From positions 1 through 50,780 of the IMG/VR virus record IMGVR_UViG_3300026097_000031: a stretch of 50,780 nt of DNA; one strand, given 5' to 3'. A model generated the notes under the pieces. That model saw only the letters and a list, made by a program, of their open reading frames with translations. It was not told where the DNA came from and did not search any database. This document shows, in pieces, positions 3,132-50,780 of the stretch (the first letter of the stretch is position 1; every line of letters begins with the position of its first letter). The position numbers and the translations under genes were made by a program. The stretch comes from a virus.

Positions 3132-4340
3132 TCAGCCGTTGGCGCAAGCCACGAGCAGACCAGCGTTGTTGTCGTACGTTTGAACGCCGAAAGTTCCGAT
3201 CCAACCCAGGCCAGCCAGGCGGTTGAACTTGTCAGTCGTCGGAGTGACAACGGTGTGCGGTTCCTCGACGACAACGTCGCCGATACCTTCCGCACCAAGG
3301 AACAGAATGTTCGCTCCGTCGGTAGGTGCAGCCTCGATGATGCTGTTCGCATCAGCGGGGATCTCGCCGCCCTTGTTCAGGCCACGGAACTGCGGCCCTT
3401 CAATGAAGCGGACACCCTCATACACGCCAACGGTTCCACGCCAAATTGGCTCGTTGGAATCGCGGTCGAGATGTGGGTACCTCCATCCAGCCACATCAGT
3501 TTCCTCACGCAGTTTGACTGCGATCTCCGGAGTGATGAACGCGTTGTACAACCCATCGGAGTACGGGGCGACACCAAGCGAACGCAGATGGGCGACGATG
3601 CGGCGAACCGAATCGGAGTCCAGCGACAGCAAAGTGTCGTTCGCGTAGTCAACAACCGCGCCACCACGGTGACCCGGCTTGATCAACCCGTGACCACCCG
3701 CATCCTTGAACATGAGGTCTTCCTTCATGTTCCCATCAGCGGTCAGAGTCGGATCACCCTTCGCGAGGATCTGCGCCTGACGGAAGCCACCATCAAGGAA
3801 GCCACCCTTCAGCGAGTACAGAGCCTCCATGTAGACAGCGTCAACCGTGTCCCGCATGTTGCGGCCCACGTACTCCGCCTGCATCGGGTTGATCTCCGTC
3901 CACGAGAAACGCTGCAACCTCTGCGTGACAACGGTGGAGTTGCCGTACTCATTGACGGTCACATCCAACTTGTCTTCCAGCGGCGGCAACGCAACCGCGT
4001 CCGGGTCCGCGTACTCAGACAGCGGAGTCTTAGCCAAACCAAGACCCTGCGCGCCCGTGCGGAACATCGACACGGTGCTGCCCGGGTAGGCAGCCTGATC
4101 GACCATCCGCACGTTGGAGAACTGGCGGTACATCGGCTCAAAGCGGAGCCGCCACCGGATCACCTTGTCGAAAGTGGCCTTAACAATAGCCATTTCGTTG
4201 TAGGCTGTGGTTGAACCAGCAGCCAAGTTAGTGTTGGGGGGGTTAACGGTTAGCGCACCGTCAACACCAACACCTGAAGCAGTTAGTTCCGGGCCGGAAC
4301 CAACACGCATGGAATCATTGAGATTCCCCTGGGCAGACAT
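3132..4340 (-). CDS. Major capsid protein, N4-gp56 type
   Basis: A 402-aa protein. The start is ATG 4340 behind GGAAGGAGGCAGATC. Size, position directly after a scaffold-like gene, and patterns such as FSWTEINPMQAEYV, RRIVAHLRSLGVAPY, NAFITPEIAVKLREE and EGPQFRGLNKGG match the N4-gp56 family of HK97-fold capsid proteins in actinophage podoviruses. The C-terminal half has the long segment expected for the A-domain. It is followed by a hairpin that may help high expression. Confidence 0.9.
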   Translation of the reverse strand: MSAQGNLNDSMRVGSGPELTASGVGVDGALTVNPPNTNLAAGSTTAYNEMAIVKATFDKVIRWRLRFEPMYRQFSNVRMVDQAAYPGSTVSMFRTGAQGLGLAKTPLSEYADPDAVALPPLEDKLDVTVNEYGNSTVVTQRLQRFSWTEINPMQAEYVGRNMRDTVDAVYMEALYSLKGGFLDGGFRQAQILAKGDPTLTADGNMKEDLMFKDAGGHGLIKPGHRGGAVVDYANDTLLSLDSDSVRRIVAHLRSLGVAPYSDGLYNAFITPEIAVKLREETDVAGWRYPHLDRDSNEPIWRGTVGVYEGVRFIEGPQFRGLNKGGEIPADANSIIEAAPTDGANILFLGAEGIGDVVVEEPHTVVTPTTDKFNRLAGLGWIGTFGVQTYDNNAGLLVACANG

Positions 4341-4362: not shown

Positions 4363-4794
4363 TTAGCCGCCTTGCTTCAGGACCGCCATCAGTTCCTCCA
4401 TGTTCTCCGCCTGATCAATCCTTGTCATGATGTCCTGCGGAGGGAGACCCTGAGCGCCCTGCTCAACGGCGTTAATGCGATTAATTTCTGCAGCCGCAGG
4501 ATCTGCCTGCGGCTGGGTTGGCCCACCGAACACGTCGGCATATTCATTCAGCCAATCATCAAGAGCATCCGCCTCGATGTCCTTCGGAACGAACGCAGCA
4601 ATCTTCGGGTTTAACCCGCGCTGCTGAATGGATTCAGCGAGCGTCTGCTTACGCCGATCCGCCTCAACCTCAGCGAACTTACTAGCGAGTTCATCTCGCT
4701 CTTTCGTAAGTTCCTTGATCTTGGCACGCAACTTCTTCGGCAGGTCAGCCGAATCGTTGTCTTCATCGAACAATGCGTCGTATTCGTTAGACAC
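4363..4794 (-). CDS. Capsid scaffold-like protein
   Basis: About 143 aa. The middle is a charged coiled coil (KLRAKIKELTKERDELASKF), followed by a helical C-terminus rich in Q, A and M. It lies directly upstream of the major capsid gene, the usual scaffold position. I chose GTG 4794 because TAAGG lies ~9 nt before it. The frame is open to 4842, and an ATG at 4815 lacks a clear ribosome site. The N-terminus reads SNEYDALFDEDNDS, an acidic start typical of these scaffolds. Confidence 0.75.
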   Translation of the reverse strand: MSNEYDALFDEDNDSADLPKKLRAKIKELTKERDELASKFAEVEADRRKQTLAESIQQRGLNPKIAAFVPKDIEADALDDWLNEYADVFGGPTQPQADPAAAEINRINAVEQGAQGLPPQDIMTRIDQAENMEELMAVLKQGG

Positions 4795-4935
4795 ATCAAT
4801 CACCCTTACTTCCATATCGTGATGGTTCGCCACACGTTCCACGTCCAGGGGAAGAGGTGGAAGAAGTGACTATCGGACTAATGACACCCACCGGGGCCGA
4901 CCGATCCGGTTGGGGAACTATGCGCCGTAGCGCTG

Positions 4936-5016
4936 TGGAGGTGGCGGGATTCGAACCCGCGTTCCAGGGTCTACCCTCGTGGGGTCTTGAACCCTGGTCG
5001 AAACCAATCCACCCCC
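4936..5016 (-). ncRNA. tmRNA-like tRNA domain lacking the tag ORF and pseudoknots
   Basis: 81 nt on the minus strand. The acceptor stem is GGGGGTG (5016-5010) paired with CACCTCC (4943-4937), including a G3-U70 wobble, then A73 (4936). The CCA end is not encoded. A D-like segment with GGTTTCGAC (5005-4997) is the signature of tmRNA 5' ends. CCAGGGT (4997-4991) pairs with ACCCTGG (4970-4964) like tmRNA stem P2. A small hairpin ACCC/GGGT (4985-4982/4976-4973) closes the arm. The T-arm GCGGG-TTCGAAT-CCCGC (4960-4944) is canonical. The mRNA-like region and pseudoknots are absent. G3-U70 and A73 are the known alanyl-tRNA synthetase identity elements. It sits between endolysin and scaffold genes in the late transcript and would need RNase P release. 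A class-II tRNA-Leu(CAA) fold is a weaker alternative. Confidence 0.75.
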
Positions 5017-5024
5017 GGCCTGTT

Positions 5025-5792
5025 TTAACCGAACAGAATTTGTTGAGCCTTCGGACCCCAATCACCTGGGGTTGGAACATGCCACCCGTGGTCGGCCTGC
5101 CAATTGGCGACAGCCTTACGCGGGTAACTCTGGTGATATTTCACAGGTTCGCCGTGGAAATAGCCCAGGTCTTTCAACCGGCAAGCCAGCCGGTACGCAG
5201 CCAGGCTCTTCACGCCAGTCTGCTCAGCCTTAATGACGTTCTCGTATGCAGGCACTTTTCCATCCCAGTACCGGGACGGGTCATCGTTGCCATGCTGAAT
5301 ACCCTCAGAGTCAATCTTGTGCTTGCGGAGGAAAGACTCAACGTCCTTAACAGTTGTGCCCTTCTTCAACTCCCAATGCATCGGGTCATAGTTCGACCCA
5401 TGCCAGTCGCCACCCCAATTCACCAGATCGCCGTACTTGTTCTTCATGTAGGCAATACCACGGTGATGCTTCGGATGGTCACTATCGAAGAATGAGCGTG
5501 GCGCAGACATGGCACCCTCATGCGCCCAATCCAGATCAACGGCAGTACCGCTGGAATGGTTTGACCAGTTGCTGTTCAAGCGGGACTTGCGGTAGTTGTA
5601 GCCACCCTCATCCCAATGACCCCGGTCAATGCTGGTCACATGCTTGTCATAGTCATGCGCTAACGCTAGGAAAAACGGCAACACTTCCCGGCGGGTAGTC
5701 AGTTTGCGGTGGGTGCCGGGGATCTTCCCGGTGGCGAGCATGTCATGATCGCGTGGACCGATAACGCGCCAATTGTTTATTGACCTAGGCAT
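5025..5792 (-). CDS. Endolysin, M15-type peptidase with C-terminal binding domain
   Basis: A 255-aa protein. The start is ATG 5792, 8 nt behind GGAG and overlapping the 29-aa ORF. The catalytic domain has the M15 pattern S77-N-H79-x-x-G82-x-A84-x-D86 and the distal H139-W140 (DPMHWEL), the zinc ligands of D-Ala-D-Ala / L-Ala-D-Glu peptidases. Residues ~205-255 (LACRLKDLGYFHGEP to WGPKAQQILFG) look like a peptidoglycan-binding domain. It would cut peptide stems in the host wall after holin action. It is followed within 9 nt by the tRNA-like RNA. Confidence 0.88.
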   Translation of the reverse strand: MPRSINNWRVIGPRDHDMLATGKIPGTHRKLTTRREVLPFFLALAHDYDKHVTSIDRGHWDEGGYNYRKSRLNSNWSNHSSGTAVDLDWAHEGAMSAPRSFFDSDHPKHHRGIAYMKNKYGDLVNWGGDWHGSNYDPMHWELKKGTTVKDVESFLRKHKIDSEGIQHGNDDPSRYWDGKVPAYENVIKAEQTGVKSLAAYRLACRLKDLGYFHGEPVKYHQSYPRKAVANWQADHGWHVPTPGDWGPKAQQILFG

Positions 5793-5874
5793 CAGCAGGC
5801 TCCAACTCTTCCTCGTCATCCCACGTAAACGGATCCCAAATATCAGGATCCCAATCAAAAGGCCCCATCAACAT
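5785..5874 (-). CDS. 29-aa acidic, tryptophan-rich micro-protein
   Basis: ATG 5874 behind GAAGGAGCACC; stop TAG at 5785. The peptide has three Asp/Trp/Phe units (FDWDPDIWDPFTWDD) and ends EEELEPADA. It overlaps the zinc-ribbon gene upstream (7 nt) and the endolysin start downstream, so translation is coupled. The good ribosome site and unusual composition argue for a real gene. The function is unknown; by position it may take part in lysis timing or virion assembly. Confidence 0.6.
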   Translation of the reverse strand: MLMGPFDWDPDIWDPFTWDDEEELEPADA

Positions 5875-26549: not shown

Positions 26550-26694
26550 GACATCGATGTCGATGTCGACTGGCAGTCGAGCCCGGATCCGGGCTCGACA
26601 CGGGTCGAGCGGGGATCGATGTCGGCTGTCGGTCGAGCCGGGATCCGGGCTCGACATGCTGTGGACATCGATGTCGATGTCGACTGGCAGTCGA
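26550..26694. repeat. 31-bp direct repeat and perfect 24-bp palindrome
   Basis: A 31-bp sequence starting GACATCGATGTCGA is repeated exactly at 26550-26580 and 26664-26694. A perfect 24-bp palindrome centred on GGATCC lies at 26576-26599, and a one-mismatch copy at 26632-26655. TCGACATCGATGTCGA at 26548-26563 is itself a 16-bp palindrome. The block ends about 100 bp before the first early gene, suggesting operators or an origin. Confidence 0.8.
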
Positions 26695-26792
26695 CTGCTG
26701 CGCGGTCGACGCGCCGTCGATTCGACATGGGTGTCGATTGTCTGTATCGTCTCCATTGCAAGCACCAAACAACAACCGATTGTGAGGCAATC

Positions 26793-27026
26793 ATGAACGC
26801 AACACCTACCGCTAGCCGCCCGTGGGATACCCCGGAATTCAACCCGGCCGGCCATAACGGCGGATGGATGGTCACGCTGCGCTGCTCATGCGGATGGCAG
26901 TACCGATTCGAGGCTGTCGATGTCGAGCAAGCGATCCAGGCGCACGAGGACCACGTCGATTCACAGTACGTCTTCGCCGGTCCTAACCGGCACGACGGAT
27001 CCATGTCGTGGACCCCGCTGTCATGA
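26793..27026 (+). CDS. 77-aa early protein with CxC motif
   Basis: ATG 26793 behind TGAGGCAATC. It contains LRCSCGWQYRFEAVD, then an acidic helix AIQAHEDHVDS. The CSCGW and His residues suggest a small zinc-binding fold of the type seen in many actinophage early proteins. It is first in the rightward operon and followed by a strong hairpin. The function is unknown. Confidence 0.75.
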   Translation: MNATPTASRPWDTPEFNPAGHNGGWMVTLRCSCGWQYRFEAVDVEQAIQAHEDHVDSQYVFAGPNRHDGSMSWTPLS

Positions 27027-27032
27027 GGCGAA

Positions 27033-27062
27033 ACACAGCAGCCCGCACCCGGGCTGCTGTGT
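27033..27062 (+). terminator. 13-bp hairpin after the first early gene
   Basis: ACACAGCAGCCCG (27033-27045) and CGGGCTGCTGTGT (27050-27062) form a perfect stem with a 4-nt loop. A smaller stem follows (27064-27070/27080-27086). There is no U-tract; it may attenuate or stabilise the early transcript. Confidence 0.65.
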
Positions 27063-27121
27063 CGACCCGGACTGTCCGCCCGGGTCCTGATGAGCCAAGG
27101 ACAGACATGAGAGGAATCACC

Positions 27122-50490: not shown

Positions 50491-50663
50491 TGAGCAGTTT
50501 GGGCACATGCTCAGGTGAAGCAGTTCTAGGCAAGTGCAGGCACATGCTCAGGTACAAGCACCCAGGTCGGTGAGCAGTTTCAGGACACTTGCTCAGGTGT
50601 CAATACACAACCCACAAGAGGTTGTGTGGGTGAACAGCCAAGTACTCCCGGAGGATTCTTGGC
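50491..50663. repeat. Right-end stem-loop array
   Basis: TGAGCA-N11-TGCTCA at 50491-50513; TGAGCA-N13-TGCTCA at 50571-50595; ACACAACC/GGTTGTGT at 50605-50627; GCCAAG/CTTGGC at 50637-50663 with a 15-nt loop. The last matches the hairpin at 82-108 with two compensatory base-pair changes. Confidence 0.7.
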
Positions 50664-50780
50664 AGTTAGTGGGCAGTTGTATAGCGGATGCCCAGCCGCA
50701 GCCCCGCACAGCAACCGTCCGGATGCCTGCGGGGAGAACTATCCCAAAAATCCAAACGAAAGACTGGACACTCTCGGCTT
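50522..50780. repeat. Right copy of imperfect terminal repeat, with 3' end of fibre gene
   Basis: Mirrors 1-292 (see left copy). The last ~42 nt encode the final 13 codons and stop of the fibre gene on the minus strand, cut by the window end. In a circular genome these would continue into position 293. Confidence 0.8.

Follow-up and report, generated by a model that had tools for sequence, protein, structure and literature searches.

Trans-translation is nearly universal in bacteria. Its control by a phage through a reduced tmRNA has so far been described for one phage in the literature searched. In that literature, mycobacteriophage DS6A is the one published phage case of a tmRNA limited to the tRNA-like domain (TLD) (Mao et al. 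2009, via PMC4131195 and PMC11915505). A molecule similar to the DS6A RNA, chargeable or not, is reported to inhibit tmRNA strongly, perhaps by titrating SmpB (PMC4131195, PMC11915505). In addition, jakobids and oomycetes have mitochondrial tmRNAs that lack a tag frame (RF02544), and two CDS-less tmRNAs of about 65 bp, likewise with no tag frame, are known from plastids, not phages, of Mallomonadaceae (PMC11915505). In a 2025 database of 97,179 tmRNAs, nine entries of the standard form lacked a coding region (PMC11915505), and an ARAGORN survey reported a tmRNA in 402 of 18,146 phage genomes (PMC9004378), a survey by which the TLD-only form would mostly be missed. A TLD-only phage tmRNA is not unprecedented, and its kind was nearly a singleton in the literature before.

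The DNA analysed here, called the window, is a complete 50,780-base IMG/VR virus record, which probably represents a nearly complete temperate phage because it carries direct repeats at its ends and a tyrosine integrase. An 81-nt RNA (GGGGGUGGAUUGGUUUCGACCAGGGUUCAAGACCCCACGAGGGUAGACCCUGGAACGCGGGUUCGAAUCCCGCCACCUCCA) is encoded on its minus strand, from 5016 to 4936; its elements and the neighbouring genes are listed in Table 1. Like full-length tmRNA (RF00023), it possesses a 7-bp acceptor stem with G3-U70, the discriminator A73, the D-loop signature, P2, a GGAC-like junction (GGAAC in the window RNA) and a T-arm. Full-length tmRNAs measure about 260-400 nt, whereas the window RNA lacks the tag frame, the resume codon and the pseudoknots, and a small hairpin, the only structure enclosed by the P2 strands, fills their place. 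CCA is not encoded, and CAG follows A73. The window RNA shares a TLD without a reading frame with the RF02544 tmRNAs, but those are organellar and usually permuted, while the present RNA is viral, unpermuted and in one piece. It also resembles the DS6A RNA, which is described as hardly more than a TLD; that RNA is a single phage case, whereas a large family, G3-U70 statistics and a pre-capsid position are known from the present set instead.

Table 1. Coordinates of the RNA, its structural elements and the adjacent genes in the window
Feature	Position	Strand	Evidence and remarks
TLD-only tmRNA (predicted), 81 nt	4936..5016	-	5' end 5016, A73 at 4936; Rfam RF00023, independent covariance model
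Acceptor stem 5' strand GGGGGUG (G3 at 5014)	5010..5016	-	Sequence, alignment
Acceptor stem 3' strand CACCUCC (U70 at 4939), then A73 at 4936	4937..4943	-	Sequence
tmRNA D-loop signature GGUUUCGAC	4997..5005	-	Sequence; equivalents of U17 and G19 kept
P2 helix CCAGGGU/ACCCUGG with capping hairpin ACCC/GGGU	4963..4997	-	Sequence, family covariation
T-arm GCGGG-UUCGAAU-CCCGC	4944..4960	-	Sequence, Rfam alignment
Endolysin	5025..5858	-	phrog_1512, E 1e-15; stop 8 nt before the RNA
Scaffold-like ORF p159	4363..4842	-	phrog_7813; downstream of the RNA, by about 90 nt
Major capsid protein	3132..4340	-	phrog_1357, E 1e-32

The identity of the RNA was examined with two covariance models. The Rfam tmRNA model RF00023 matched it with 63.0 bits (curated cut-off 47, E 2.4e-22), aligning both ends of its 374 positions and deleting about 290 in the middle; the degenerate D-arm with GGNUUCGAC, the P2 helix and the T-arm are all present. 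Furthermore, an independent covariance model built from 24 other viral sequences, with the window RNA left out, recovered it with 74.1 bits (E 6e-17). Neither the RF00023 alignment nor the length of the P2 loop leaves an mRNA-like domain with resume codon and tag frame in the window RNA. Judged from sequence and alignment, the RNA is a tmRNA reduced to its TLD. The preliminary description had proposed this identity, with the same span but no strand, from the acceptor with G3-U70 and A73, the D-loop signature, P2, the hairpin and the T-arm; all of these were found in the sequence, and the missing tag ORF agrees with the deleted middle of RF00023 and the short P2 loop. It had also named an Infernal search of Rfam as a check, and tmRNA was the clan winner there, with no score as an ordinary tRNA. 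Together with the covariation and the conservation in relatives given below, both models support the identification.

Other readings of the molecule were rejected. ARAGORN reported neither a tRNA nor a tmRNA, and a cloverleaf with a D-stem and an anticodon loop was not found in the window RNA, for which Rfam preferred tmRNA at 63 bits; an ordinary tRNA was therefore dismissed. A two-piece, permuted tmRNA was rejected as well, since both halves lie in order within 81 nt. C74 seemed conserved without the following CA, but the ordinary tRNAs of the same loci were alike (110/128 without CCA), and it was not retained as a special signal.

The distribution of the RNA was studied in IMG/VR using a pattern consisting of GGTTTCGAC followed by a T-loop motif within 25-55 nt, which matched at least 120 contigs. 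When 6 or more of the 7 acceptor pairs had to form, at least 88 distinct sequences remained. Among the matches listed, the 88 candidates formed about 66 clusters at 90% similarity, and about 84 of them were genuine members; L065, L075, L091 and about ten other pattern matches were attributed to chance or to tRNAs and left out of the covariance model. The GGATTCGAC form, which is the Rfam consensus form, was found at 13 places in viral sequences, each of which scored as a member of the family. Across bacterial and archaeal genomes totalling 257 billion bases, a stricter pattern was found at only 11 places, 4 of which had a high covariance-model score; among the viral matches listed, it was found in 94 of the 120 loci. 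This indicates that the family is mainly viral, the figures being counts and not per-base rates. Moreover, seven cultured Streptomyces phages carry unannotated copies: those of LuckySocke, Shaeky, BRock, Riptide and pSt2308 were confirmed by the model, while GiJojo and Alone3 match by sequence. ARAGORN gave a tmRNA label to only 2 of 77 checked loci, so standard annotation misses these RNAs, and this low detection would explain why the class went unnoticed. The sequences collected show that TLD-only RNAs form a large family which has been overlooked and which occurs in numerous phages unrelated to one another. In the tmRNA literature searched, mostly outside subscription journals, the abundance of the family, the invariant G3-U70 and the pre-capsid placement were not described.

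Some matches turned out to be other molecules. Those in Xanthomonas Rb1 and Alcaligenes QDWS595 are permuted full tmRNAs, and that in Mycobacterium phage Nanosmite is a standard full tmRNA. Near the latter, which is left unannotated in the record (L127), a GOLLD RNA was observed at 2417-2794 (192 bits). In addition, one phage contig (L053) contains two different TLD-only RNAs, at 5-81 and 1317-1392, and the contig of L028 contains a copy (L302, 1801-1877) of the L005-type RNA in which 2 nt are missing on the 3' side and one acceptor pair is lost as a result, pointing to decay or an assembly error.

The structure and its alanine identity are under selection. In 69 distinct model-aligned members, 98.2% of helix cells were paired, and the covariation score was 0.722 against 0.130 after shuffling and at most 0.11 in slid controls; fitting this alignment to the covariance model somewhat favours structure, while the acceptor-stem counts on the 88 candidates were made independently of the model. 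G3-U70, the AlaRS determinant, was present in 69/69 of the aligned members, in which acceptor pairs 4, 5 and 6 varied among 4-5 pair types. It was also present in 84 of the 88 pattern candidates among the matches listed, for which only 6 of 7 acceptor pairs had been required, and in all relatives found via the capsid gene. For the ordinary tRNAs of the same loci, G3-U70 was found in 6/6 alanine tRNAs and 4/177 others. Alanine identity has been maintained by selection in the TLD-only family. The P2 loop had a median length of 20 nt among 70 members, and only four of them showed any GCN...stop frame in it, which leaves no room for a tag frame; by this measure the RNA is not a tag gene made shorter.

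The placement of the RNA was compared among phages. A search with the capsid protein yielded three relatives, at 67, 43 and 39% identity. The order p391, RNA, scaffold-like p159 and capsid gene is common to these and to two relatives found through the RNA pattern, and the placement from RNA to p159 is the same in L122-L124, L228 and L233. Extra genes, including the endolysin, are inserted between p391 and the RNA in the window; the endolysin was not found in L122-L124. In L124 the P2 region is longer and the covariance-model score only 26 bits, with G3-U70 kept. The preliminary description had placed the RNA between endolysin and scaffold and looked to relatives for its conservation. The gene coordinates and the shared strand bear out the former, and the latter was borne out by the RNA being kept in the same slot before the scaffold and capsid genes. 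Among terminase relatives at 55-57% identity, a different phage group, the RNA was absent from 80 loci. A scan for promoters and terminators gave nothing above chance.

The RNA also occurs in an unrelated capsid lineage (phrog_10), with the head protease on one side of it and the capsid gene on the other. Of 69 loci that extend far enough upstream, 11 had the RNA (10/58 distinct), and its distance to the capsid gene downstream never exceeded about 350 nt; it is an accessory element in a fixed slot there. Two unrelated lineages have the RNA immediately ahead of capsid or scaffold genes, and the upstream ORF is often only 7-10 nt from the RNA 5' end, so the RNA could also be read as tRNA punctuation, an RNA-processing element separating the capsid mRNA from the upstream genes. 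We regard this as improbable, since neither G3-U70 nor A73 would be required for processing and many copies occur in tRNA clusters or beside other genes. Alternatively, the RNA might act as a decoy or a spare substrate when a host defence attacks or senses tRNA, tmRNA or AlaRS. Its patchy, accessory distribution among close relatives would fit, as would the 21 of 77 loci, about a quarter, with a tRNA within 1.5 kb, where the RNA lies among phage tRNA genes; but neither a defence gene nor a counter-defence gene was seen linked to it, and the direct precedent favours trans-translation, so this reading is quite unlikely.

The ssrA gene of the host offers another origin. The 3' ends of ssrA are used by integrases, and the matches in Gordonia Yeezy and Tsukamurella TPA4, where ssrA-like fragments adjoin integrase genes, and probably others, look like such fragments. 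It is highly improbable that the window RNA is such an attachment-site fragment, or a tmRNA in decay, because both of its halves are intact and covarying, its place is conserved in relatives, and the integrase lies about 37 kb off in the linear record, or about 13 kb off if the genome is circular and the path runs over the joined ends. For Cellulosimicrobium, integration beside ssrA was also rejected: the ssrA of the host lies at a distance of about 28 kb, and a duplicated att sequence was not found.

With respect to host partners, no phage-encoded SmpB was found in 40 records, many of them fragments, so the RNA would depend on host SmpB. In Escherichia coli, SmpB contacts U17, G19 and A334 of tmRNA (PMC8363625), and the equivalents of all three are kept, by position, in the window RNA. 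In L122-L124 the D-loop signature is altered, with U17/G19 changed, and it is also altered in Riptide (L131); G3-U70 stays in all of them. Alanine charging seems to be more strictly kept than the SmpB contacts. Riptide is annotated with a full tmRNA (record 94862-95130, tag ANSKFAFALAA) besides its TLD-only RNA, and this tmRNA might be an inhibition target of the latter.

The best explanation, with a probability of about 0.6, is interference with host trans-translation: the charged TLD-only RNA would bind host SmpB and EF-Tu-GTP, compete with host tmRNA, and suppress or short-circuit the process. The RNA would be transcribed together with the late head genes, cut out of the transcript by host tRNA-processing enzymes and charged with alanine by host AlaRS via G3-U70. 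Once bound by SmpB and EF-Tu-GTP, it would vie with the tmRNA of the host for both SmpB and stalled ribosomes; as it carries no resume codon or tag, it would suppress or short-circuit trans-translation late in infection. The sequences themselves establish the structure, its conservation, the invariant alanine determinant, the missing tag frame and, in the records searched, the lack of a phage SmpB; that the RNA is processed and charged, binds SmpB, competes with tmRNA and benefits the phage is what we infer. The preliminary description had suggested a decoy or inhibitor of host trans-translation, and for this idea the molecule similar to the DS6A RNA offers a published precedent. The D-loop change in L122-L124 and Riptide weakens the SmpB-binding step, as far as sequence can tell.

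Inhibition as reported for the DS6A-like molecule needs no charging, though G3-U70 is invariant here, and a pure SmpB sponge fails to explain this invariance. If charging were irrelevant, G3-U70 should drift; it does not, which points to an effect on the ribosome, as a dead-end peptide acceptor or in tag-less rescue. A minimal rescue RNA, in which alanyl-TLD with SmpB enters the stalled ribosome, takes the nascent chain and releases the ribosome untagged, would likewise act in the charged form to which the invariance points. It would be like the role proposed for the tag-less mitochondrial tmRNAs, which are kept together with SmpB (PMC11915505). Nevertheless, no termination route without a stop codon on the RNA is known, and the sole published test of a similar phage-like RNA is reported to have given inhibition (PMC4131195); we consider rescue unlikely. 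Tentatively, and with less confidence than in interference, TLD-only tmRNAs could be a major, convergently placed phage class acting alanine-charged, the nascent chain being accepted untagged in tag-less trans-translation at the capsid peak. If true, phages would swap host trans-translation for a tag-less version, beyond mere SmpB sponging. Because the family is large and diverse and its alanine determinant does not vary, many phages may carry a natural trans-translation modulator. Since the invariance speaks against a simple sponge, the role of a charged, tag-less tmRNA on the ribosome is in question, and the copies in cultured Streptomyces phages make it testable.

Several other features were observed in the window. 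Direct repeats of 109 and 59 nt connect its ends (1-292 and 50522-50780), and these carry several short GTGAGCAGTTT...CACATGCTCAGGT-like motifs, which suggests a near-complete genome with a repeat-rich end region. A 41-nt repeat (TCGATGTCGACTGGCAGTCGAGCC...) occurs three times in direct orientation at 26560-26714; relative to the first copy, identity is 90% for the second and 66% for the third. Moreover, at 27026-27100 on the plus strand Rfam gave a match to the Hammerhead_II ribozyme (39.7 bits against a cut-off of 37); a gene of the GP88 family (PF17338) probably starts shortly 3' of it, at about 27123.
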